DNA of 64,000 nt from Phytoseiulus persimilis (Eukaryota; Arthropoda; Arachnida; Mesostigmata; Phytoseiidae). A program made the position numbers and the translations under genes. The stretch is taken from positions 32,426,001 through 32,490,000 of the forward strand of contig CM075101.1 of NCBI GenBank assembly GCA_037576195.1, given 5' to 3'. Of the stretch, positions 3,929-63,743 are shown in pieces. The notes beneath the pieces were generated by a model. That model was not told the origin of the DNA. It worked only from the letters and a program-made list of their open reading frames with translations, and made no database searches. Within the stretch, counting starts at the first letter, position 1; every line of letters starts with the position of its first letter.

Positions 3929-5149
3929 TCACAGTCCCGGTACGATGTCCTTCCTCCACTTTTGGTCCATCCAGTCGGGTATGTGCTTCTTATTCTCCAA
4001 GAACTGCTCTTTTGTGAATGCTTGCGAACCGACGTAATCGGTAGAGCCATACAGTGAACCGCCTAACCAAGCAGCGACGTTGGAACAGCAGGGAGTCGAG
4101 TGGAACTTGAATTTTTCCATGTGCAAGCTAGCCTTATATTGGGGCAATTCGAGCAGGGCTAGAAGCTCTTCTTTGAAGCGTCGTCTGAAGCCGGGAATCA
4201 TCGAAGTTCCTCCCACGATGACGACATTCTGTGCAAGTACCTTCCGCGAGTCGCGATTGCACAACAGTAACGAATCGATGACTTGCGTAGCCACTGATTC
4301 CATTTCATTGTCTAGCTCGAACAGGCATTCAGGAGCATACTCCCGCAGGGTGCCAGGGATCTCTAACACCTTGTCGCCTTCGAGTGGGTACTGAATATCG
4401 GACGGCGTAGGGAGTTCAAGCTCACGACCCTCACAGAAGGCTTCCTCGAACCCTTGAGCTTGGAGGTGACGATCACGTGGAGTGACGAAACACGTTCGAA
4501 CTTTGATGTCTTCCACAATATCTTCATTGCAAAGAATCTCCGGATTGACTTCGCCGAGAAATCGACTCTCCCCGTCGGGACACCTCACCCTTCCAAATTT
4601 TAGGAGGAATTTCTCCAGTCGTTTATGGATTTCGTTAGAGCCGAGAGGTATATCTTTGTAAGCTGCTAAATTGCAGACTCCGTCGATCACAGGCAGAACA
4701 GAGGTCCACTTGAAGCCAACATCGACAACCAGCGCCGTGTTCAACCGTAGGGTGTATAAGGTGCACAGGTGGGAGGGAACGAACACGATGGCAGGAACTT
4801 CGAAATGTTCGTAGAGAACAGTTGCGAGGGTGTCCTTGAACTCGAGGGGAACCATGAGAGACTCGACGACCACCAAACGACGATCCTTGGGATTGGTGCA
4901 CAGATGCTTGTAATAAATAGCATAAAGAAAATCTTGGAGCAAATGGGGCAATTCGCTTGAGTGGCTGTACGAGTAGATCTCATGATTGTCTACTTTCGAC
5001 GGAATGATCGCTCTCGGACTCGGTTCTCTCGCAAACCCGCATTTCGTGTACGCTCGGCCAAGTTCCAAAACGACCGGACACTTATCCGAAGTCAAGCTGT
5101 ACTCTGCGCCGGTGGTGTATTTTGATGTCAACGGGCTTTGGGACGCCAT
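3929..5149 (-). CDS. ACTR10: Actin-related protein 10 (dynactin pointed-end subunit)
   Basis: A single uninterrupted 406-residue frame from ATG at 5149, near the usual length of about 417. The actin fold is visible: a phosphate-1-like loop (VLELGRAYTKCGFAREPSPRAIIPS, about residues 28-51), a degenerate phosphate-2 loop (VVDVGFKWTSVLP) and the C-terminal nucleotide-fold motif NVVIVGGTSMIPGFRRRF, then a C-terminal AAWLGGSLYGS (actin WIGGS). The degenerate loops and the insertion-poor sequence fit Arp10 better than actin or Arp1. Arp10 (Arp11) caps the pointed end of the dynactin filament in the cytoplasm and supports dynein-driven transport. PET117 follows 161 bp downstream on the same strand. 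No coding intron is seen, unlike most neighbours. Confidence 0.9.
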   Translation of the reverse strand: MASQSPLTSKYTTGAEYSLTSDKCPVVLELGRAYTKCGFAREPSPRAIIPSKVDNHEIYSYSHSSELPHLLQDFLYAIYYKHLCTNPKDRRLVVVESLMVPLEFKDTLATVLYEHFEVPAIVFVPSHLCTLYTLRLNTALVVDVGFKWTSVLPVIDGVCNLAAYKDIPLGSNEIHKRLEKFLLKFGRVRCPDGESRFLGEVNPEILCNEDIVEDIKVRTCFVTPRDRHLQAQGFEEAFCEGRELELPTPSDIQYPLEGDKVLEIPGTLREYAPECLFELDNEMESVATQVIDSLLLCNRDSRKVLAQNVVIVGGTSMIPGFRRRFKEELLALLELPQYKASLHMEKFKFHSTPCCSNVAAWLGGSLYGSTDYVGSQAFTKEQFLENKKHIPDWMDQKWRKDIVPGL

Positions 5150-5477
5150 TTCGAGTGTTCTCGGAGCCTCGTCTCAGCAACTCGTCAAGACTCGAGAAAT
5201 ATCTCCAGCCAGGAACATTGGGATCACGTCATTCGGCGAGAAGCGGGGAAACTCACCTCTCTATATTGTCCAAACGCAGAACCAGCCGCCATGTTTATTC
5301 CCTCGAGCTCGGCGCGAAATTCGAATCCAGTGTCAAGAAACGACCGCGAAGAATAAGATCTTGGCTATGCTCACCTCATCACACAGAAAGTTCTCCCGCA
5401 GGAATCACGCTGCGATGTATGGCAAAAGCCGGGGAACTCTGAAAACATAGATAACGGTCCCCCAGATAACGGACTTT
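5150..5477. other. Arp10 upstream region, no recognised gene
   Basis: Short overlapping ORFs only. On the minus strand a GTGAGT at 5251-5256 is a possible donor of a non-coding 5' exon of the Arp10 gene, but no transcript evidence exists here. Confidence 0.4.
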
Positions 5478-5778: not shown

Positions 5779-6738
5779 TGTGGTCAGATCGATCTTGGAC
5801 TCACCTAGATAACCCCGAAACATACGGTCAGGTCGATCTCGTAATGAACTCCATGAACCCCCCAAATCACATTCAGTTCGACTCCGGCATCGCCTTCACA
5901 AATCGGTGGTCGGTGGTGAGGGATCTCTTATGTGAAGCCTGTGTTGCCAGAGAGGTCCGTTATCTGAAGTACGATTTGCCGAAACTAATTGTCTCCCATC
6001 TGAGGGATTCGACTGCGTTGTTTGACAATTGAAAACAAGATCTTGTTCAATACCAGCCGGCCTTGGACCGACTGGAGTCGGCCGCGCCGTGCGCGGTCGG
6101 ACGGCGTTCCCTGGCATCGAAGCACTTCTCTCCCCCTTCATTGGGTCAGCATCATGGTTTTGAAGAGTATGGTCAGACTGGTCTCGCAATCACCCCTCCG
6201 GACTTGAAAAACCATGGTCGGATCGGTTCCTGAATCACCCCTCCGGACTTGAAAAAGTATGGTCAGATCGGTTCCGAGATCACCTCTCCAGATTCGGGAG
6301 AGTATCTTCAGATCGGTCCCGGAATCACCTCTCCAGACTCGGAAGATTATATTCAGATCGGTCCCGGAATCACCCCATCCACGTTTTCAAAAGTATGGTC
6401 AGATCGGTCCCGGAATCACCCCTCCACGTTTTCAAAAGTATGATCAGATCGGTCCCGGAATCACCCCTCCAGGTTTTGAAAAGTATGGTCAGATCGGTCC
6501 CGGATTCATCCCTCCAGGTTTTGAAAAGTATGGTCAGATCGGTCCCGGGATAACCCCTCCACGTTTTGAAAAGTATGGTCGGATCGGTTCCGAAATCACC
6601 CCTCCAGATTTTGAAAAGTTTGGTCAGATCGGTCCCGGATTCATCCCTCCAGGTTTTGAAAAGTATGGTCAGATCGGTCCCGGACTCACCCCTCCAAGTT
6701 TTGAGAAGTATGGTCAGATCGGTTCCGGAATCACCGGA
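5779..6738 (+). repeat. 45-bp minisatellite, block in forward orientation
   Basis: Core GGTCAGATCGGTCCCGGAAT recurs near 6173, 6214, 6261, 6308, 6353, 6398, 6443, 6488, 6533, 6578, 6623, 6668 and 6713, giving 13 copies mostly 45 bp apart. Three degraded copies lie at about 5782, 5826 and 5871, separated from the main block by a non-repeat 5900-6160 stretch. The middle copies are nearly identical and the edge copies diverged, typical of recent array turnover. The long open frames across the array (15-residue periods on both strands) follow from the repeat length. Confidence 0.9.
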
Positions 6739-25889: not shown

Positions 25890-28800
25890 CCTGCTTCGAT
25901 GGATGTTTCAGAATCGGGAGAAAAACACCGGCACAGGAAACACTTTCACGGAAATCTGCACTCCACCATCTGAAATTTCGCGATGAGATTTCGTTGCTCT
26001 CGTGGGCTTCTTCGATCCCCGCGAGCTGATAGTGGCATTAACTTCAACCGTTTCAGATGAACAGCAGCTACGCGTAAGCCCAAAGCTCCTCCCCCGTTCC
26101 AGGGGTCTGCTGGTCCCTCTCGCGCAGCTCCCTCGCCCTGAAGCGCCCCGTCAACGGGGTTCGACCCGCAAATTAAACGAGACGATTTGTTCTGGAGGTA
26201 AGAAACACGAGGAACTCCGATCCGCTCCCTTACACGAAAACAATGTTGACCAGAAGCTTTTTCTGTGCATAATATCAATGTCGACTTCGTTTGCATGAAT
26301 AATACGATCGAAAATGCACATTTTCTGATATCGGGGTGCCTATGCGTTGGAATCGGCTCGGAAAGTAGATTCGGAACAATGGATCAACTTCTTGAGGTTC
26401 AGTGAAACTCCCACAACATCCGGGGAAAAGTATCCCTCCTATCGTGGTGATGTCACGCGTGGAAACCCAATTTAAATGCAATGGAGTCTGATCGGGACTG
26501 CAAGCGCGGATACGCATGCCTTTCGATCATTTTCTGTTGAGGCGTGCGTGTATTCCGAATACCTGATGAGCTCACATTTCTGGATTTGTCCTCTGATCGG
26601 AATTCGGCTTCATGTTCGAGGAGAAAACGGCTTACTTGCACGAATCAATCTCCTGGAGCTATAATCACTGGAACGAATGGGGGAGATGGACTCTAAGTCC
26701 CCTCCCTACCGTATGAAAATGTGGGGATTCTTGTATTCATTTACACAGTGATTCGGCCCCGTCTCGAGCTCGATCTCCCAGAACTCAATATTTACTCAGG
26801 CTCGCCATTGGATCAAGAAGCACGATAGCAAACCGTTGCCAACCCCGATGAATTACCTAATCGCGTCGGACTCCTTTATCTGAACGCATCGAACGCAGTT
26901 GTGGCGCACAGGACGCACTTTGGATCTCTGGAAGAATCCTGAAGTGTGCTAATGACTTCTCGGTTCCTCGAATCGGTATCATTTCAACAATTTGGCTCCC
27001 GTGACTTTATTCATGCCCTGAGGAAGACCCTCGGCTCGGCGCTTGAGGCCGTCAAAAGCCTCCCTGTCCGAGTTAACATCATTTTAGGAGATGAAACAGT
27101 TCAAGTTCACGGCTGCCCGTTACCAACTGTCGCCTTCGAGAAAGCGTTTAGTTAAGACCGGCGGTCAGCAAGGTGAACTATCTCGGAATTGAGGACTGGA
27201 ACGCAGTCGGGGCGAATCAGCGTTGATGGCTCACCACGCAAGCTTGACTCGAACTGATCGCAGGGCTCCAACATCAACCAACGAGTGACTGCAGCTCCAC
27301 AAGCCAGCAAACGAGCGGGCGGGGGAAGCAGCCCGCGTTCGAAGAATGCTATGTTTATCTTTTTTTTTCCCTTTCCTTTTTCGATCCGTTTGGTTTCAAC
27401 GATCGTGTGGAGAGACTTCGAAACTGTTTTTGTGTATTTGAAATTCGGAAATGAGATCTGGAACGAACAGACTTGGTTTCTCTCTCTCCCAATCGCGAAG
27501 GAGCGCGAACTTCTCGTGAATCATCCGAGTCGGCCCTCGATGGACAGGAGGAGAGTTAATACACTTAGAGGATGAAAATCAGGGAGGGGAGGAGCGCGGG
27601 GTATAAGACGATTAGGAGATTGCCTCCACTTTTGATCGACGAAAGTTCAAGAAAAGATCCAGCAATCGTTCTCTCTTGTTCTTTCAACGTCTGTTCTTTC
27701 AGTTGCTCCCTACAACAGTAGATTGTAGCGGCGTGCCACCCAGTCCACCGACTGATTTTTACAGAAAGAGCTCTCACGGTCCTTAGCAGTTGTTGGCATG
27801 CCTCAGCGGAATTTACTTTTTCAGCTCGGTGCTCATCGTCCACGGCTAGATCTGCGATGATCTGATGCGGAGCGATATCTCGTTGTTCGGTGAAAGGGAC
27901 TCTTCGAATATAGACTGACAACCTCAACCGGTTGCGCGTGTACTTTTTCTGCTATTGAACGAGAGCTCTCACTCTTCGAACGATTTTTTGTGCTTCAGGA
28001 AAAAATGAGCTGATGGCGCTGCGGGAACTTCAGTGATGGAGAACTGCTAGTTTGATTCAAAAGAACGAGGCTGGAAGGGCAGAAAGCTTTGAAAGCGGGA
28101 ACAGGAATTCGCGTTTACATACGTTTTAGACATCTTCCTGTCATTCTTATCTCCCGCAAGCATGCGGATGCAGCTCTAGTAGCCCTATAGCGCAGCTTCG
28201 GACGGAGTCGGGGCGATTCCCATCATCGGAATCATCTAGATCGCCGGAGTTTCAACATTGAAGCATTGAACATCTCGGAGCTCGATTCGAGTCTGGAAGC
28301 ACGCGTCAATGTGATTCCACTTCTCCACCTCGTGTATGGCTGATGATGAAGCACGCAGCATGCTCAATGATAACTCAACCTCGCCACAGAGCAGAAGAGC
28401 TAGTTGGCCAAGCTTGGAAAGACTCGGGTTTTCGGGCCATAGGTTGGAGAACTTCAAGCTTTGTTGGGCCTCGTTCCACAACAGCGTTTTGTCCCGACCC
28501 CAGTTCAGGGCCTGCGATTGTTTAATCGTCGACGTAAGCTCTCTTTGGTAGCCAATGAAGCGGATGCCTGTTCCATGAGGGCTTTTTCTGAAGCTGGCCA
28601 CTCAACAGAAGCTGTGCGGTTTCCTCGACCCTCCACAGACTTTTGTACCGGCTCGTAATGAAGCCGCCAGGCTGCGTTGAATCCGCATCAACAAACTTGT
28701 TCAGAATTCTCGAGCGAAGACTCAACAACTCCCGTCGGGGGCATTATCGCCATGATAGTTCCTCAATTCAGTCTAACAGAGATGGGTGGGCTCCAGTCCC

Positions 28801-29690
28801 GGTGATTCGCGATCCCGACGTCTCGTTCATGTCCTAGCTCAAGAGTCGCTCCTCTGACGGCAACCGAATCGGAAACGAAGGATCGATAATCCTCATTTCC
28901 ACCGCGGGGCCGCGTGGTAACCACGTCCAAGCAGCGGGAAGAACTTTCGAATTCGTAGAATACATGCAAAATAATTGGTCCAGTGGATGAGGTAACATCG
29001 AAAGGAAGCCGTGCCATCGGTCAAGCAGATGTGAGGCTCGAATGGTCGGGAACCACGAATCTTGGTGACCGATCTGATTTGCTTCTCTTTCGCGATTGAG
29101 ATACCTGAAACCACCCAGAAGTATTCCTGGACTCACAAGAGAGACCGAGATAAACAAATGACTCCCAGCCGCTCTAACGCATGGATCGTCTTTCGATCAA
29201 CCGTTTTCGTGGATTTGGTTCTCGACATCTAGAAGATCATACTGCGCTTCGTCCAAGAGCGCGCTCAATCGCAGTACGAGGATTCGAGGGCTCCGACGGC
29301 AAACTGACTTTCCCTCGGAGATTGTTAGTCTTCCGGCTCGTCGTAGACGGCACGTTTTTCGTTGCCGCGGTCTCCGCTTCCCCGCCATCGGCGGTTCCCT
29401 GCGAGTCGTGTCCCGGATCGGCAACTCCAGTGCACTCGACGATATCCACAGAACGAGGACACGCAACATCGGCCTGGTCACATAATCGTGGGAAGTGTTC
29501 GTCGAAGGTATCATCTTCAGCATTGACACAGCACTAGGTGACCGACAAAATTGGTACCGGGATGAAGTGATTCGATACCTCAGGTGACCACTGCACAGGT
29601 GGTCTTTTCCTCAAGTTGCAGCATTGTCCAATGCGATCAGCTCCTTTTGAACCAGTTCATCAATAAAGAGTTGGATCGGTTTCGTGATTT
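25890..29690. other. Region upstream of the NRF-6-like gene, no secure gene
   Basis: Should contain the promoter of the NRF-6-like gene next to 25889. Minus-strand ORFs at 28236-28601, 28522-28728 and 28834-29157 have protein-like composition but disagree in frame and match no family I know. They are left uncalled. Confidence 0.4.
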
Positions 29691-29799
29691 CGGAGTTGGG
29701 GCGAGCTCCGACGCTGACATTTGACGAAAAAACTCGAGCCCTGGAAAAGGAGCTCGCGAAAAAAAATTCGAAGGATCTATCGTGATGTTTCGAATACAA

Positions 29800-29805
29800 T
29801 TTATT
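29800..29805 (-). promoter_or_regulatory. Candidate poly(A) signal, copy 1
   Basis: AATAAA on the minus strand in a context (CAATTTATTTTCG on plus) shared with the signal 69 bp after the copy-2 gene. Here it lies about 630 bp after the stop because of the extra sequence in copy 1. Confidence 0.4.
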
Positions 29806-30434
29806 TTCGCATCTACATGTTGAGAAGTCTCGTTCAGTTGTAAGGGTCAAATCGTAACAACATTTGAATAACTGGCAGCACAACTGAGCCATCGGATGGA
29901 ACGAGAGACGAACCCTCCGAGAAAGCACCTCACGCTTCGAGATGGACATCTCTGAAGTACTTTCCGGCTCCGGCGGGATAGACCGCGAGAACGTTACATT
30001 TCTGTGCTATTTGGAATATGCGACGTAGATATATGAAAGCTTAACGTATCTCTGATTTCGACAGTTAGCCGAGCTATCCCACCCCCACGAGATATATTCT
30101 GCGAACATTCCGGAAGCAAGCCGATCCCGCGAAGGTTCGCATCCGCGCTTCTGAAGGATTTGGTTCTACGCGTGTTGGGTTTGTTTTTCCCGCTTCCGTG
30201 CACTCACGAGTTCGACGTTACCGTCGGAACTGGCAGAGCAACAAGATTTCCCGTCCCATTACATTGAAAGAGAGGTATGTCTTCGTTAATAAACCGAGCC
30301 ATCGGTCGCTGCGGACGACCTTTGACAGCGGTTGGATGGACTTGCGCGGTAAATTCGAGATTTGGCGTTCATATCTTGCGGATGTATTGATACACAATTA
30401 TTATATTACATCCGGCTTTCCATCACACCGAGCA

Positions 30435-31256
30435 CTACCACCATTGATTCCACCAGGGCTTCTCCGAGGTTGATGCCATCGCTGTTTCGTCCGACTGCAG
30501 TGATGTCGTTTCCTCTACTTTCACTGACGCTGTTCTATTTCGCAGGATCTCCACCAGAGCGAATATCGCAGTCTTCTCGGGGTCATCCGATGTCACGAGG
30601 TCAGTTGCGGTTTCAGAGCCTGGAGATTTTTCTGTGCATTTTGTGTGAGTTCGTTTCGCGTTCGGTGTGATCCGTTTGGCTCTGGCGAAAATCGACCGTG
30701 CGAACTCCAGCGTTACGTTCCTCGTCGATGAATCTTCAAGCAGACGATCAATAACCGAATGGCACGTTGTCTCGTCGTTTTTCGCAGTTTCCATGCCTTC
30801 ACCTCGAGAAGAGAGTCGATGTTTTCTCGTAGATGAGTGCTCCCCTTGAATCGTCTCGGCTACTTCGGATATCGCAGCGCCGCGAGAGGAGCCATTTTTC
30901 CGTTTCTTGTGTTTTTTCTCACCTTGCGGACGCCTTGGCCCTGTAGCCTGCGACGAGTCTGAAACTTTTACGGTGTCATCTGCCCTGTGCGCTTCGGATG
31001 ATTCTTTCATTCTTCTAGTCGAGGCGGCCTTGACGCTTTTGTCTGCTCCCGATGAAGCCATGTATTCCATTCCCGTCCTGAGGATGAACCAGGGGCTCCA
31101 GGCAGTTTCATTTGTTGAGAACTCAACACTCTTCTCCGCGAAAAAACTGGCAACGTCGAGGAGCGTGGCCAATGGCGAGCCCGATTGTGCTGGGGCTGCC
31201 GCGCAACTTGGACTAGACAGGCCGATCACGATGAACGATAAAAGCAGGAGATGCAT
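30435..31256 (-). CDS. Secreted protein of unknown family, copy 1 (273 aa)
   Basis: Intronless frame from ATG at 31256. A strong signal peptide (MHLLLLSFIVIGLSSPSCAA, residues 1-20) starts the protein; no other membrane segment is seen. The mature part is Ser/Thr/Glu/Lys-rich with a basic stretch (GEKKHKKRKNGSSRG). It shares with the copy at 33740-34582 the blocks AWSPWFILRT.M.YM, the region around a Cys (TTC.SVIDRLL.DSSTR.VTLEFAR), DDPE.T..ALVE.LRNRTAS and a C-terminal tryptophan cluster (PWWNQWW). Two cysteines remain after cleavage, so one disulfide is possible. N-glycosylation sequons occur at NET, NVT and NRT. Conservation of the frame over its whole length between diverged copies supports a real protein. 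I recognise no domain and assign no function; a secreted salivary, cuticular or reproductive role is only conceivable. Confidence 0.8.
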   Translation of the reverse strand: MHLLLLSFIVIGLSSPSCAAAPAQSGSPLATLLDVASFFAEKSVEFSTNETAWSPWFILRTGMEYMASSGADKSVKAASTRRMKESSEAHRADDTVKVSDSSQATGPRRPQGEKKHKKRKNGSSRGAAISEVAETIQGEHSSTRKHRLSSRGEGMETAKNDETTCHSVIDRLLEDSSTRNVTLEFARSIFARAKRITPNAKRTHTKCTEKSPGSETATDLVTSDDPEKTAIFALVEILRNRTASVKVEETTSLQSDETAMASTSEKPWWNQWW

Positions 31257-32098
31257 GACCGAGCCGTTAGAATGCGCTTGCCTGACGCGTTGAATGTCGA
31301 ATGTAAGAATGGTCGGGGGTCGATTCGGCTCTCTTTCACTTTCGGGATTTGGGAGAGTGACTACCCTCTTTCGTTTCTGGAATTCCGCGGGAATTCACCC
31401 CTACAGAGGCTACAGAGTTCAGGAATGCCTAGTTGTTTGCTGATTCGGGGTGAGGCGCCAGTCTTCGTTCTCGTTGATGATAGTGACTTCTTGTGAGTTT
31501 TTTTTCTCGCCAGAGTGTGCGGAAAGATCATTGATTCTTCACGTAATTCCTGGGAAAGTACTCTAAATACAGAAAGCACAGGATGCTATCTCAGACGATT
31601 CACTCCAATGACAACAGATCTACAATCGACTGAACGGAATGTTAACCGTAAGATTACCTTGGGAGGGTATGCACACTATTCGGTGTGCACTGTAGCATGA
31701 TGCACGGCGCTGTGGACCACGTGCGTGCAGTAGACATTGACTGAACTATCTGTTTCTGATACTGGCCAACGGGGAAACTATTCAACAACCATCAAGTGTT
31801 AACCGGGCTCTGTCTGGTTTCACTTGCTCCTGGAATGCGGAGATCATGCCCGGAACCAGCCCCGCAAACGCATGACTGACGAGGCAGAGAGGCACGCGTG
31901 TTCGAATTTAACAGCTGATCACAACTCAACGCGAGAGAGCACGCGCGAGAAACAAAAACGATCGATGCCCCTCAGGCGCAGTGCCCATGGGTTCCGAATG
32001 AGCGATCAACCCTAGGGTTCGATCAACCGCAGGTGAGCGCATGTTCTGAACTACTTCAAAACAGCCTCTTTTTAGGGCTCTGACACGGTTCCGATCAT
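31257..32098. other. Spacer between duplicated genes, upstream of copy 1
   Basis: The first 190 bp upstream of copy 1 resemble the same interval upstream of copy 2 and probably include the promoter. The remainder to 32098 shows no gene that I recognise. Confidence 0.4.
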
Positions 32099-33474
32099 TC
32101 ATCGAGAGAGAGTGGTAACATTTATCCAGATTACACTGTTTCGAAACGCTTCCCGCAGAGCGAAAGCCGCGTCAAGTGTCGCCGGATCCAAACTAGCTCG
32201 ATGTTCCCCCAACAACAGCTTAACTACACTGAAATCTTGTTCCTGGCGCACCGAGGTAGGAGGAATGCTCAATAGTATATGTCCGCTCAGACTTGAAAAG
32301 TGACCCTGCCCTCCGCCGTTTACGTGAAGCGCATACTCCTTCCGTGAGTTTCTTCTCGTAGAGGAACTGCTCTTCCCCTTGAAAAAATCCGGAATTTTCG
32401 GAATAGGGAGGGCGGAGTCCCTGCACATGAGCGGCACCTGAGAAAGAAAGCCAGGACATGGAACATGTCGTAGACCTTGTATTCGCGCACTAGAAAGTCG
32501 CTAGCGCCCATGAGAGCTCGCCGGTATGGGTTCTCCGTCGATGCCCTGAGATGCATAGGAATCTTCTTATTCGAGAGTTCCCGACAAAATGTCAAGCATT
32601 TCCCTGAAAACACGTGGTTTTCTGGCCTAATCCACTTTCCAGCGAGTAATCGTAGTTTCGATGAGCAAGAATCTGGAGAATCGTCGACAAATTATCCATC
32701 CAAAATGGGTCGTCGCCCCAGAACCTCGACCATTTCAACTTCCGATTATTTCAACCGTTTTCTGCATAATCAGCTGAAATTATCGAGGTCCCACAGTGCT
32801 GTACCATCGGGTCTGGACGTCGAGGATTGGGCGAAGTTTCTGTCCGTTGAACTCAGAATCGGGAGTCGTGATCTTAATCTCGTCCATCATATCAGGCGCT
32901 TTCTTGAACGTTCGACAAACCTCTCGAAGACGAACTACAGCGTCTCTGAGCACACCTCCAAAAGTCTCCGGGTTCTCATCAGCCTCTGGTTCTCCTTCAT
33001 CTTCTATGTCCTCCGCGATATTGTCTGCACCTGGTTCACACGGAGTGACAAGCAGCACAACGTTATCCGCCGTAGACTCCTGATGATGATCTTGTTCACA
33101 ACCAAGTTGATTCCATGGGCCAAGAATTTCCGCTCACGAAGACCCATTTCTTTGACCGCTTTGAGTGCGTTGGCAGCCCCGTCAGTTGCTACGGCAACGA
33201 GATCCTTGGTCGGAAGATCAGACGGAGCAAGCCGGTGGCTGATGCCGATTTTCAAATGGACGTTTTGATGGACGTTTACCGTTAGGTATGGATCTGTTCC
33301 GACAAGAGTCGCTTCGTGGATGGACGGAACGAATTCTGGCCCCGAGGGGCTCCACAATTGCTGATAATATAATTCATCAGTCCTGCGCGAGAGTAGGCTG
33401 AGGCCTTGGATATAATGCCTACGAATTTTTTCTTCCTCGTGTGTTCCGTTTCTGCAGACGAATATGGCGGTCAC
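32099..33474 (-). pseudogene. Decayed hAT-family transposase
   Basis: Three minus-strand fragments in different frames together follow the hAT order. 33474 to about 33080 has VATDGAANALKAVKEMG and FLAHGINLVVNKI (catalytic-core region with the conserved His). 33058-32780 continues after a frame change with LREVCRTFKKAP and LRPILDVQTRWYST, the RW motif. 32437-32099 carries the C-terminal dimerisation block LLSIPPTSVRQEQDFSVVKLLL..LDPATLDAAFALREAF. Stops and frame changes near 33070 and between 32780 and 32440 mean it cannot be translated as one protein. The N-terminal BED zinc finger was not found. It lies between the two duplicated secreted-protein genes. Described only; no repaired version is given. 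Confidence 0.8.
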
Positions 33475-33488
33475 GGCTGCGGGTTCTC

Positions 33489-33560
33489 TCCGCGGATAAC
33501 CGCGAGATTTTCGCGGTTTTCAGGGGAGGGAAGCCTCAGGAATGTGGCGGTTATCCGCGG
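33489..33560. repeat. 14-bp perfect inverted repeat
   Basis: CCGCGGATAACCGC at 33489-33502 and its reverse complement at 33547-33560, with an inner CGCGG echo at 33511. It sits just beyond the 5' end of the hAT relic, so it could be a terminal remnant or an unrelated palindromic site. Confidence 0.7.
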
Positions 33561-33665
33561 TTAATGAACGCGGTCAGAAACCACTGGAAGGCCCAGTTGC
33601 GACGCTGACACTTGATGACGGAACCTTGCTCTCGAGAAATAAGCCCGCAGAGAACTTTCGAACAA

Positions 33666-33671
33666 TTTATT
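33666..33671 (-). promoter_or_regulatory. Poly(A) signal of secreted-protein copy 2
   Basis: AATAAA on the minus strand, 69 bp after the stop codon of the 33740-34582 gene. Confidence 0.6.
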
Positions 33672-33739
33672 TTCGTAATGCTCTTCAGGATAGATGGATG
33701 CACTAATATATTACGTCCGGCATTTCATCACAGTTATCA

Positions 33740-34582
33740 CTACCCAGACCACCATTGATTCCACCATCCTTTCTCTGCGGTTGATGGCATCGCTCTGTCG
33801 TCTGAATTCAGTGGCGTGGTTTCCGTTTTTCCCAATGACGCTGTTCGATTTCGCAGGGTCTCCACCAAAGCATTCATTACAGTCTCTTCGGGGTCATCCG
33901 ATGGTTCAAGGCGAGCTCCACGGTGGCCATTCGCGGTCCTTGAGGCACGAGGTGTTCGCGAGCAACTCGTGTAAATTTGTTGCGGGTTGGGTGCGATCTG
34001 CTTGGCTCGCGCGAGAATCAGCCGCGCGAACTCCAGCGTCACTTTCCTCGTCGACGAGTCATCAAGCAGACGATCAATGACCGAAGGGCATGTTGTCTCA
34101 ACGTTTTTCGCAGTTCCCATTCCTTTACCTCGAGAAGAGGGTCGATGTTTCCTCTCAGATAAGTGCCCCCTCGTGATCGTCTCGGATTCGTCGGAGATCT
34201 CAGCGCCGCTAGAAGAACCATGTGCCCGCTTCCTGTGCTTGTTCTCTCCTTGAGCGCGCCTTGATCCTGAAGCCAGTGACGATTCAGATCCTACCGTGGT
34301 TTCATTGGCCGTGTGCGCTCCGGATGATTCCTTCGTTCTTCTAGTTAAAGCGGCCTTGACCTTGTTATCGTCTCCCGATTGGATCATGTAATCCATTGCA
34401 GTCCTTAGGATGAACCAAGGGCTCCAGGCAGTTACATCGGCGGACTGCTCCACACCCTTGCGCGCGAGGAAACTCGCAAAGTCCAAGAATCCAGTCATTT
34501 CTGAGTCCGGTCGTGCTAGGGCTGACATGCAACCCGGACTAAAGACGCTGACTACGAGAACTAACAAAACCAGGCGATGCAT
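33740..34582 (-). CDS. Secreted protein of unknown family, copy 2 (280 aa)
   Basis: Intronless frame from ATG at 34582, paralogue of the 273-aa gene 3.3 kb away on the same strand. Signal peptide MHRLVLLVLVVSVFSPGCMSA (1-21). Conserved blocks: AWSPWFILRTAMDYM, a basic GENKHRKRAHGSSSG stretch, TTCPSVIDRLLDDSSTRKVTLEFAR, DDPEETVMNALVETLRNRTAS, and the C-terminal WWNQWW followed here by SG. Compared with copy 1 it has a few extra residues around TNGHRGARLEP-like sequence before the DDPE block. The NVT sequon of copy 1 is KVT here, and a new NET appears earlier, while NRT is shared. Two mature cysteines are kept. Function unknown. The retained frame despite many substitutions argues for selection on the protein. 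Confidence 0.8.
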   Translation of the reverse strand: MHRLVLLVLVVSVFSPGCMSALARPDSEMTGFLDFASFLARKGVEQSADVTAWSPWFILRTAMDYMIQSGDDNKVKAALTRRTKESSGAHTANETTVGSESSLASGSRRAQGENKHRKRAHGSSSGAEISDESETITRGHLSERKHRPSSRGKGMGTAKNVETTCPSVIDRLLDDSSTRKVTLEFARLILARAKQIAPNPQQIYTSCSRTPRASRTANGHRGARLEPSDDPEETVMNALVETLRNRTASLGKTETTPLNSDDRAMPSTAEKGWWNQWWSG

Positions 34583-34815
34583 TACCGAGCCGTGAGCGTG
34601 GACTTGCCTGAGACAATGAGCTTCGGATGCCGGGGCGGTCGCAGGTCTATCAGGTTTCTCTCTCAGTCTCGAAACGGAAGAGAGCGACCCACCTCTCCGT
34701 TTTCGGAATCCCGCGAGAATTCACCCCGTATCCAGACGGGCTACGAAGTGTGGCAATCTGCGCCCATGCAGATGATGTCAGTATGAGCGCCCAGTTGTTC
34801 TCTAATTTGAAACGA

Positions 34816-38701: not shown

Positions 38702-40068
38702 ATGGTCCTTCGACGCGCAATCCAAGGACTTAAAGTTCACTCAGAGAATGTAGCTCCAGCTGAAAACCGAGGCGCCAAGCGACCCCGAGGCGACGACAGC
38801 GGACCCGCGTCGAAGAGAGGCGCGATCGGACTCAAAGTGCAGTCAGAAAACATTGTATTGCCTCAAAATTTGAAGAAGGTTCTCAGAGAGAATCAGGGAG
38901 CCGAGTTGGTAAAGAAAGACATCCTCAAAGAGATCTCGAAGAACGATGCTCAACAGAAGCCCGCAGAGGTGACCACTAGAAAGCCTTCGCCAGCCAAGAG
39001 AGCAGTGCAACCACGAATTAAGGTGAGTACCTTTTCTCCAAGCTCTTTCTGACCATATTACTGAGAGATTATTCGACTTTGAAATGGACTGGGTTGACAT
39101 TCGTCCGAGCTCTCCTTTTCTCTGTTATCTAAATATTGTTGTTCCCCTCATAGCGCACAAATGTCATGGTGAACCACGTCGACGCTTGCGCACTCGACTT
39201 CTACGTCGAGAAGTCCGATCTCCCGGAAGGTGTGCCCGACGTCGATCGCAAAGTCCTGAACGATCCGATTTGCGAAGGCCACTACGCGCATGACTCATTC
39301 GTGTATCTCAGAGAACGGGAGAAAGAGTTCATCTGTCAACCTTACATTCATAAGCAGCCCGAAGTTCCGAGCAGTTATAGAGCACTCCTCGTCGACTGGA
39401 TGGTAGAAATCCAGGAGAGCTTTGAACTCAACCACGAGACCCTCTATCTCGCAGTCAAAATGGTTGACCGCTTCCTCAGCAAGGAGGATCTCCGAAGGTC
39501 GCAAATTCAATTACTCGGAGCGACTTCGCTCCTCATCGCGAGCAAAATCGATGAGCGAGTACCACCGAGCTTGGACGAGTTTACTTATATCTGCGACGAC
39601 GCCTACACTCGGGACATGTTCATAGACATGGAACGCCACGTGTTGAAGGTGCTCGACTTCGATCTCTCGATGCCTCTCAGCTATTCATTCCTCAGACGGT
39701 ATTGTCGCTCAATGGAAATGACTCTACGCGAAATGACACTTGCTCGATTTATCCTGGAGTGCTCTCTGATGGATTATTCAATGATCGGACACCGCGACAG
39801 CAAAATCGCCGCCGCCTCACTCCTCCTCGCTATGGATATTCTCGGCATGGAGTGGAAGGACACTCTCACGTACTACAGTGGCTATCAGCCATCCGAGCTC
39901 CTACCACTGCGCGACGAACTCAATAAATTAGTACACCGCCTGAAACAAGTATCTCAGGAGGAGAAAGCCTCAACGAAAACGATTTTTGTCAAGTATTCTC
40001 ATGAAGTTTTCCACAAAGTCGCCACGCTCGAGTTCCCCCCGATCGAAGAGACGACCTCGTCGAGATAA
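38702..40068 (+). CDS. CycB3: Cyclin B3
   Basis: Exons 38702-39022 and 39154-40068 join in phase 0 and give 411 residues. The start is the Met of MVLRRAIQG; an upstream in-frame reading has no ATG support. The N-terminal 107-residue exon is basic and low-complexity and carries two similar motifs with GLKV.SEN (about residues 5-16 and 39-50), in the position where mitotic cyclins hold degrons. The cyclin box starts near SSYRALLVDWMVEIQESFELNHETLYLAVKMVDRFL, the wording typical of B3 rather than B1/B2 cyclins, preceded by YLREREKEFICQPYI. The C-terminal cyclin fold follows (SYSFLRRYCRS, ARFILECSLMDYSMIGH, SKIAAASLLLAMDI). Cyclin B3 activates Cdk1 and promotes anaphase and meiotic progression in the nucleus. 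Confidence 0.93.
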
Positions 40069-49179: not shown

Positions 49180-49833
49180 TTACATTCTGTCGATTCCTTC
49201 CACAGCTTGCTGCAGATGGATATCGAAAAGCTCGCAGCGGATCGGTTGTTCCAGCGCGTAGAATGGGTTTTTCAGCCCGTAATCGGCGTAAATCTCGAAT
49301 ATTTTCCGGAGCAAGGCGTCGACATTACTCTGTCGAGGACCCGCGACAGCCATGAACTTCATTCCAGTGACGGTCTGGTAACAGTAGAGCTTGAAAGTGT
49401 CTGTTTCAAGAACTTCGATGCCCGACGACTTGTGCTCAGGACTCAATTGGGAAGCGATTGCGTAAAGCGAATGGAAAGTTGAAGCGAAGAACATCCGCTC
49501 ATTGAGACTCGGTCGAATCTTGCCGAACTTAATGTTGATCGGGTAGTTCTCCTGTTTCTCAAGTACTTCACCGATCTCTCTTCCATCCTGGAGCTTGAGA
49601 CCGTCGGCCGGTACGCCGTTGATGGCGAGGATAGTGTGGCCTGTTTTGATTCCGTCCCGTTCGCCGAAAGTCACCCTCCATCGGTTGATTGCATCTCGCT
49701 TTACTGCCAGTTTGATGTCGAGAGGATAGCGAAATGTCTTCTCAACTTCAAGGGGCACAAATGGAGCATCCCAATGATAGATTAAACCTCCGGATTTGTT
49801 CACTATGTATATGCTCTGGATCCCCGCACTCAT
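49180..49833 (-). CDS. TRAPPC4: TRAPPC4 (synbindin/Trs23), vesicle tethering subunit
   Basis: Single exon of 217 residues; human is about 219. The ATG at 49833 ([22 protein letters not shown]) is chosen because the longer frame begins at TTG. The longin/SNARE-like fold is interrupted near residues 50-110 by the PDZ-like insertion of metazoan TRAPPC4 ([27 protein letters not shown]). The C-terminal half ([66 protein letters not shown]) is diagnostic. TRAPP complexes act as Rab1 exchange factors and tethers at ER-Golgi and in autophagy. Its start is 30 bp after the HTD2 stop and its stop 43 bp before the NUBPL start. Confidence 0.96.
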
Positions 49834-49863
49834 CGTGTTCTCCAAGCGGGGCCGCTCACGTTC

Positions 49864-61999: not shown

Positions 62000-62899
62000 A
62001 TGAGATGCTGGGAAGTTCCTCTCGGGATACTTCTATTGGCCTTCGTGTCGGGAACGAGAGGCCATGGTCGCCTCTGGGAGCCGCCGTCGAGATCGTCTGC
62101 GTTCAGAAGAGGCTTTCACACGCCGAGGAATTACAACGACCATGAGTGCTTCTGTGGCGGCTACAAGGTAAAGACCGATCCTCTGGAGTCAGCGCATCCG
62201 GCATCCTCCAATGATACTTCACGACGAACGTTCCCAGGTGATGTACGAGCTGAACGGAGGTAAATGTGGAGTGTGCGGCGATCCATGGAACCTCCGCGAA
62301 CCACGGCCCAACGAAGATGGTGGAAAATACGGCACAGGAACGATCGTGCGACGTTACCAAGAGGTTGAGACTTTTCTTCTTCAGTTTCTCTCGGCGGCAA
62401 ATCTCGCCTCGGCAGAGATGCTCGAGATTACGCGTTTTCGAAGTCTCCATAGATTCAAATCTTTCCAGGGTAAACGAATCAAGGTTTCCGTTTTTGTCAC
62501 AACCAATCATCTGGGATACTTCGAGTTCCAGCTCTGTCCAGATCCATCGAATCTCAGAGAGGAATGTTTTCTTAAACACGAATTGAACGTGGATGGCTTG
62601 GGCCAGAGAAAAACGAAAAGACTCTACATAGGATCTGAAGATGGGATGCTATCAATGCATATGCGACTGCCCAAAGGCATCACGTGCAGGAGATGCGTTC
62701 TCCGTTGGCAGTACACAACAGGTACGCTATTGGGACTCCAAGAGTGCATTGCTGTCGATCATAATCTTTCAGTGGGAGCCGGTACATCACGAAACGCCTT
62801 CCAGGTAACTTCTGGGGCAGGTGCAGTAACGGAACAGCTGGAATGGGCTGCGGGAACCAGGAAGTCTACCGGGCGTGTGCTGATATCGCGATTCTCTGA
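62000..62899 (+). CDS. AA15 lytic polysaccharide monooxygenase (chitin/cellulose-active, secreted)
   Basis: Exons 62000-62167, 62238-62363, 62469-62721 and 62805-62899 join in phase to 213 residues. A signal peptide (MRCWEVPLGILLLAFVSGTRG, 21 aa) is followed by HGRLWEPPSRSS, so cleavage leaves the N-terminal histidine needed for the copper brace. The second brace histidine is His112 (TTNHLGYFEF), mature position 91, and the axial tyrosine is Tyr204 (EVYRACADI), mature about 183. These match the His1/His91/Tyr184 pattern known for firebrat AA15. Paired cysteines (CGVCGD, CRRC, GRC..GMGCG) complete the fold. No carbohydrate-binding module or C-terminal extension follows. The enzyme oxidatively cleaves crystalline chitin or cellulose outside the cell; in an arthropod a role in cuticle turnover or digestion is likely. 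Confidence 0.95.
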
Positions 62900-63743
62900 G
62901 TCGGGCCTTTTTCACTCCAATCCGAATCTGTATGGCCTCAATAAAACGCGTCACGACTGATGGTGACTGCAGAACGGGATCCCGAAGCTTTGAAATAAAT
63001 TACGTTCAGAGATTCCCGAGTTACTCCACGGTGCGCTCTCTCGCCCCGGTCGCATATGTATCCTTGGCTTGAATCATGATCAGTTTCTCCACTAGAAGGG
63101 ATGCTTTACGAGAATTGAGGATTCGAGCTTGCTACGAAAAAGTGAGCCCCGCAACGACTACATGGACGCCGGCTGTTCCTTGTGGTTTCACAGAGCACAA
63201 CTCCGGAAAAGAACTCGAGGCTGATTTGGAGCCGGAGGCGATGCAAATCGGATCCATCGAGAAAAAGTGGCCATCATGGAACACGCAACGGCTCGAACGG
63301 CTCGGCGTTCTGTCGTTTATAGCTCAAACCAATATTTGTTTCCCTGGGGCAGCACAAGTAGTTCGAGCTGCCGCGAGTAAATCACTGCCGACAACGTCGA
63401 TCCGAGTGCGCTTTACACGACCCGGTTGTACTTCAACCATAACGAGGTGATCGAAAATAGTTCTGCTGCGGATAGACAAGCTGACATCAAATAGAACCGA
63501 ATATTCTTGGACACGCATCTTCGAGCTCCCGTCAAGGTAGAAACGCCAACGATTGCGTTCTGGCATTCGCGCCAGAAACGATGTCCCGTCCATGGGAGCG
63601 CAGTATGAAGATTGCGGGACGTTTCGTTCAGACCGGGAACAGCAGCGTGGATCCAATTCGAAAACTTCCTAGTCGCCTACGGGCGATGGGAACTCTCTGT
63701 TGTTTCCATGCTCATTGGGGTATGTGGCAACTATACGCAAATA
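62900..63743. other. Intergenic space between AA15 gene and OAT
   Basis: Tail-to-tail interval. The plus-strand ORF at 63076-63450 and minus-strand ORF at 63324-63656 overlap and have no recognisable motif. Confidence 0.45.

Follow-up and report, generated by a model that had tools for sequence, protein, structure and literature searches.

Do two neighbouring open reading frames (ORFs) that lack a recognisable domain represent genuine genes of a secreted protein family, and if so, how did copies of them come to lie on different contigs? The question is raised by a 64,000-nucleotide stretch of contig CM075101.1 (assembly GCA_037576195.1, positions 32,426,001 to 32,490,000; hereafter, the window), in which an earlier sequence-only reading had described a tandem pair of intronless genes from an unrecognised family, encoding 273 and 280 amino acids (aa). 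Both ORFs were found on the same strand and with these lengths:

30435..31256, minus strand: coding sequence of gene A, 273 aa, stop codon TAG
33740..34582, minus strand: coding sequence of gene B, 280 aa, stop codon TAG

The reported spacing of 3.3 kb agrees with the start-to-start distance between A and B (3326 bp), and 2483 bp separate the two reading frames. Both frames are uninterrupted in the genomic sequence, and the word intronless covers only that. The A and B proteins share 59% identity over 278 aligned columns.

The genome searched comprises 181 Mb in 127 contigs, with the window located on contig C1. A protein search with A returned four matches, namely A and B (C1) and two additional full-length frames, copy C (C3:25299751-25300566) and copy D (C2:5090075-5090890), with no internal stop codon in any of them (0/4). 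Although A and B both lie on C1, the description as a tandem pair was too narrow, given four copies on three contigs. A fifth full-length copy was not found in the protein search with A, in a DNA search with A and its flanks, or in a protein search with B (E up to 10). In the last of these, the rows of A, C, and D each contain one TAG; this is the regular stop of the respective gene, reached because B is longer. Two further matches (E 0.72 and 1.94) do not exceed chance. The DNA search also listed short pieces of flank without the gene, including one outside the gene loci (C2:587344, 82 bp), and no decayed gene copy was seen among its best candidates. An upstream coding extension (stop-to-stop frames of 319, 326, 326, and 443 aa) was rejected due to leader gaps of 1 and 8 nucleotides (nt) between A and C/D, thus translation of gene A likely begins with the ATG at 31256.

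Substitutions and gaps were then used to evaluate whether the frames are constrained. Ratios of nonsynonymous to synonymous substitution rates (dN/dS, or omega) for all six pairs range from 0.36 (A-D) to 0.62 (C-D) with the Nei-Gojobori method (NG86) and from 0.40 to 0.82 with the Yang-Nielsen method (YN00). In a purpose-written codon model, omega of the whole protein is 0.651 (twice the log-likelihood difference [2dlnL] from omega 1: 10.46); the selection suggested earlier is thus supported, albeit weak over the whole protein. Using blocks drawn after viewing the alignment, the same model gives omega values of 0.73 for residues 1-22 (2dlnL 0.47), 0.39 for residues 23-77 (2dlnL 8.94), 0.39 for residues 161-210 (2dlnL 9.25), and 0.62 for residues 211-280 (2dlnL 2.87). 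Kimura two-parameter (K2P) distances were compared in five pairs (B-C was left out), and the coding region is less diverged than both flanks in 5/5 pairs (coding, upstream, downstream; A-D: 0.172, 0.261, 0.206; A-C: 0.169, 0.236, 0.182; C-D: 0.061, 0.073, 0.078; A-B: 0.310, 0.445, 0.563; B-D: 0.304, 0.405, 0.336), with a small margin for A-C downstream, B-D downstream, and C-D.

As the sequence-only reading had noted, changes are length-neutral: coding gaps are absent in A-D, A-C, and C-D, and those relative to B measure only 15 and 6 nt. None of the five aligned pairs has a frame-breaking coding gap, whereas the flanks carry gaps of many lengths. The flank gap counts as listed include end gaps forced by equal-length windows; a hand count of internal gaps retained 6 of the 8 listed for A-D and at least 8 of the 9 listed for C-D. 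From these hand counts, about 9.2 (A-D) and 4.0 (C-D) coding gaps were expected (12.3 and 4.5 with uncorrected counts), compared to zero observed. In joint neutral simulations along the tree, with rates taken from the flanks (n = 20,000), no run ended with four open frames and 14 ended with three. Based on the simulations and the gap pattern, the reading frame of the family is kept by selection, while the sequence overall evolves fast. At the sequence level, omega, coding gaps, and neutral simulations together identify the members as protein-coding and under selection.

The protein anatomy behind these values is as follows, with signal peptides identified by hydropathy only and their cleavage points guessed:

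31194..31256, minus strand: putative signal peptide of A, residues 1-21
34520..34582, minus strand: putative signal peptide of B, residues 1-21
31026..31190, minus strand: conserved N-terminal block of A, residues 23-77, contains AWSPWFILRT, omega 0.39
30627..30776, minus strand: conserved block of A, residues 161-210, C165 and C207 invariant, contains VIDRLL.DSSTR.VTLEFAR, omega 0.39
30438..30455, minus strand: terminal Trp cluster WWNQWW of A
33749..33766, minus strand: Trp cluster WWNQWW of B, followed by SG

All three sequence blocks named in the earlier reading, as well as WWNQWW, are present. In 4/4 copies a hydrophobic stretch directly follows the Met (best 11-residue Kyte-Doolittle mean of 3.07-3.47, elsewhere at most 1.8); it looks like the signal peptide that had been claimed, but by hydropathy alone that identity is putative. 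The mature chain is about 28 kDa with an isoelectric point of 8.6-9.5. Invariant in 4/4 copies are six Trp (53, 56, 268, 269, 272, and 273 in A) and, in the mature part, two Cys (165 and 207), and columns 108-109, 117-119, and 144-145 hold dibasic pairs in every copy. The structure prediction proposed as a check yielded a model but not a usable fold: AlphaFold2, run on the four-member alignment, gave a mean predicted local distance difference test score (pLDDT) of 36.2 and a predicted template modelling score (pTM) of 0.23. This low-confidence model draws helices at residues 28-45, 55-68, 73-89, 176-196, and 226-244, with long coil between them.

Taken as a whole, these features suggest that the genes encode secreted proteins of about that mass, each with two conserved modules, residues 23-77 and residues 161-210, that are probably helical for the most part; the second may hold one disulfide (C165-C207). 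The modules would be joined by a disordered, basic, almost unconstrained linker, which is possibly cleaved and contains the dibasic pairs, and the Trp-rich tail probably mediates adhesion to a surface such as a membrane or lipid.

Several results weigh against the overall reading as genuine genes for such proteins. Selection is absent in the middle third of the protein, where the basic stretch of residues 78-160 is neutral-like (omega 1.07, 2dlnL 0.08), so that the modules rest on two blocks whose borders were chosen after seeing the alignment. Conservation of basic residues in this middle part is not significant (12/19 vs 24/64, P 0.065). A mean pLDDT this low supports neither a fold nor the helices. 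A model with a separate omega for each branch (A: 0.40, B: 0.79, C: 0.94, D: 0.71, internal: 0.62) leaves the constraint on the youngest copies in doubt and gains little likelihood (-2390.98 vs -2393.10). Codon usage also fails to separate the true frame from the others: random windows score -0.013 +/- 0.031 and true frames -0.013 to 0.039, with another frame scoring higher in 4/4 genes.

The weak overall constraint, the neutral-like middle, the low-confidence model, and the lack of a homologue in any library searched would all suit ORFs that are young, barely functional, or of de novo origin and that stayed open by chance after recent duplication. We consider this improbable, given that none of the 20,000 simulated neutral histories retains four frames, that coding gaps in five pairs are exclusively multiples of three, and that two blocks have an omega of 0.39. 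It is reasonably probable, in our judgement, that A and B are part of a four-member family of genuine protein-coding genes that is probably restricted to one lineage.

Which family this might be was addressed by library searches, and here the term unrecognised was borne out. None of the four members matched Pfam or NCBIfam (0/4 each at E<=1), and there were no matches among PDB sequences at E<=10; no curated profile or solved structure of a described protein domain family was thus matched in these sets. When A and B were queried against Pfam at E<=10, a single match was obtained for A (E 6.7, 8 bits vs a cut-off of 27) and none for B. Pattern searches gave 41 stretches in viral contigs and 58 in prokaryote contigs, with no relative in either set. 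The three motif strings tried occur in no paper of the library searched, and no paper listed by the literature searches was recognisable as describing this family. Because the searches span only Pfam, NCBIfam, PDB sequences, viral contigs, and prokaryote genomes, A to D could be diverged members of a known arthropod secreted family that these libraries do not recognise, which is a minor though appreciable possibility; on the other hand, Pfam is built from all of life and gave 0/4 members at E up to 1. Within the scope of these libraries, the four-copy, putatively secreted family is probably an orphan and lineage-restricted.

The arthropod source assumed earlier is borne out by 112 genomic matches to the R&R cuticle domain, which we take to be typical of arthropods, compared to none in 14 control genomes. 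The telomere pattern (TTAGG)5 had no match on either strand, and one in the reversed control. A search for mitochondrial COX1 gave no match in this genome, and the matches of its control all fall in prokaryote genomes. In the predatory mite Neoseiulus cucumeris (173 Mb genome), 6981 of 18,735 genes (37.26%) are given as lineage specific (PMC6902594); the present family likewise has no recognisable homologue, and differs in being a four-copy family with measured constraint. Should the species be of that kind, a further orphan family would therefore be nothing unusual. A second parallel is lushu of Plutella xylostella, described as an orphan sperm protein gene (PMC11290247), i.e., an arthropod orphan gene with a reproductive role; this is an analogy only, and the sequences were not compared.

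How the copies arose can be read from their flanks, which are shared on both sides of the genes:

31257..31427, minus strand: 5' flank of A, common to C and D and mostly also to B, leader and probable promoter
34583..34727, minus strand: 5' flank of B, common to A, C, and D
29307..30434, minus strand: 3' flank of A, of which D shares three blocks (30434-29944, 29918-29588, and 29498-29307)

All four copies share about 145 bp or more upstream. Between A, C, and D, shared sequence extends for about 170 bp upstream and for at least 270-430 bp downstream, and C and D can be aligned over 2558 bp at 91%. The 3' flank of A is shared with C in place to 30093, in addition to a displaced piece (30066-29944). 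Because flanks are common on both sides, the copies are duplicates at the DNA level rather than retrocopies, and the promoter likely travelled with the gene. Uninterrupted frames on different contigs would also be expected of retrogenes, i.e., intronless copies reverse-transcribed from a spliced parent. This explanation is largely refuted for these copies and we give it hardly any credence: neither homology ending at transcript ends nor an intron-bearing parent was found in the genome searches, A, C, and D share the flanks described, and C and D have more than 2.5 kb in common.

Repeats lie next to the gene units (listed here together with block U and an ORF between the genes), and this bears on whether the family's ORF is the gene or cargo of a transposable element:

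C3:25297859-25299455: terminal inverted repeat (TIR) transposon, about 1.6 kb long with terminal repeats of roughly 200 bp, located at the 3' end of the C unit
L006 2400-3315 (locus of D, C2): repeat of about 900 bp, whose 3' end is the exact start of block U
27601..28014, minus strand: block U, located 3' of gene A, and 5' of the gene in C and D
33004..33519, minus strand: degenerate ORF between A and B

Both the TIR transposon at the C unit and the repeat ending exactly at block U in D could be taken as signs of such an element. Yet only four gene copies were found, compared to at least 43 genome-wide matches to the first 489 bases of the TIR transposon, and the 900-bp repeat has 13 rows outside the D, C, and window loci, of which 6 short and 2 long pieces end at the same 3' end. 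Judged by eye, the four copies do not share any terminal repeats, and the TIR transposon reads as a separate insertion into the gene unit, apparently at a TATA site. With neither shared ends (by eye) nor multi-copy spread, an origin as a transposable element gene is very unlikely. The ORF between A and B, which by eye looks hAT/ZBED-transposase-like, has no Pfam match. Long frames beside C (L005) and D (L006) look by eye like a reverse transcriptase and a retroelement protease/gag region, respectively. A minisatellite (45 bp, 12.8 copies) is present at window positions 6157-6735, and related pieces lie upstream of D on C2, at a distance of about 13 kb, and of C on C3, at about 2.3 kb.

The order of the shared pieces differs between copies, and it is permuted twice (D vs A, C vs D), which is the flank order expected of a derived copy that passed through a circular intermediate. 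In addition to block U, for which no other location was found in a search with the upstream DNA of D, a 244-bp piece lies 3' of the gene unit in D (partly also in A), yet 5' of the unit in C. A tandem array would give such an order too, and at C part of the unit is present on either side of the gene: the right end of the TIR element and the adjoining 124 bp of the unit recur across the gene (92.5% identity). A tandem or rolling-circle concatemer is therefore favoured over one clean circle. The insertion of a single clean circle at C was not preferred, given a segment slightly longer than one unit with part of it repeated on both sides; read by eye, the junction inside C has no clear microhomology. 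Overall, the permuted order points to tandem-array or circular intermediates.

Two published cases are informative. At cattle KIT, the internal order of the segment that moved agrees with a circle that reopened at a different position, and tilapia vasa is a second circular-intermediate case, with copies in new locations (both as presented in PMC3420103). Like KIT, a circle opened at another point yields the order of flanks seen here. Unlike both cases, the units are small (2.7-3.9 kb), C runs just over one unit, and a tandem array explains the order equally well.

Site patterns support the grouping AB|CD (32 sites vs 3 and 3 for the alternatives). B has the most private changes (129; A: 50), therefore the root of the four-copy tree is probably on the branch of B, assuming a clock. 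An ancestral tandem pair would have stood on C1, and a segment with an A-like gene would later have been copied to C2 and C3 via a tandem-array or circular DNA intermediate. We count the four open frames, the selection-kept frame, the duplication of DNA with its flanks, and the permuted flank order as settled. Far more tentative, and in our view doubtful as a whole, is the wider proposal of a new, fast-changing secreted family from one arthropod lineage, possibly with a new fold, whose genes moved twice between chromosomes as permuted (circular or rolling-circle) units of promoter-carrying DNA.

Elsewhere in the window, conserved genes surround A and B (318-1422, 3929-5173, 39154-40068, and 49180-49863), comprising BAH and HMG box frames (presumably polybromo-like), an actin-family protein, a cyclin, and a Sybindin/TRAPP subunit. 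An ORF on the plus strand (62172-62960) matches LPMO_10 (lytic polysaccharide mono-oxygenase, E 8.5e-09). A tRNA scan found none, and a bacterial promoter/terminator scan, which is not meaningful for this genome, gave 1 and 3 hits vs 3.7 and 5.1 in shuffles.

Traits that distinguish a lineage from others are often carried by orphan secreted proteins. The protein described here is most likely an extracellular, fast-evolving factor specific to its lineage. It would work by contact with a surface or membrane, made through its Trp tail and the two putative helical modules, in what may be a secreted adhesive or effector-type role. It may serve in the reproductive tract, in saliva, or in defence, among which we do not rank. 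With four genes and two conserved modules, the family is small enough to be fully testable, and its two permuted copies provide a compact natural case of short gene units moving between chromosomes together with their flanks.

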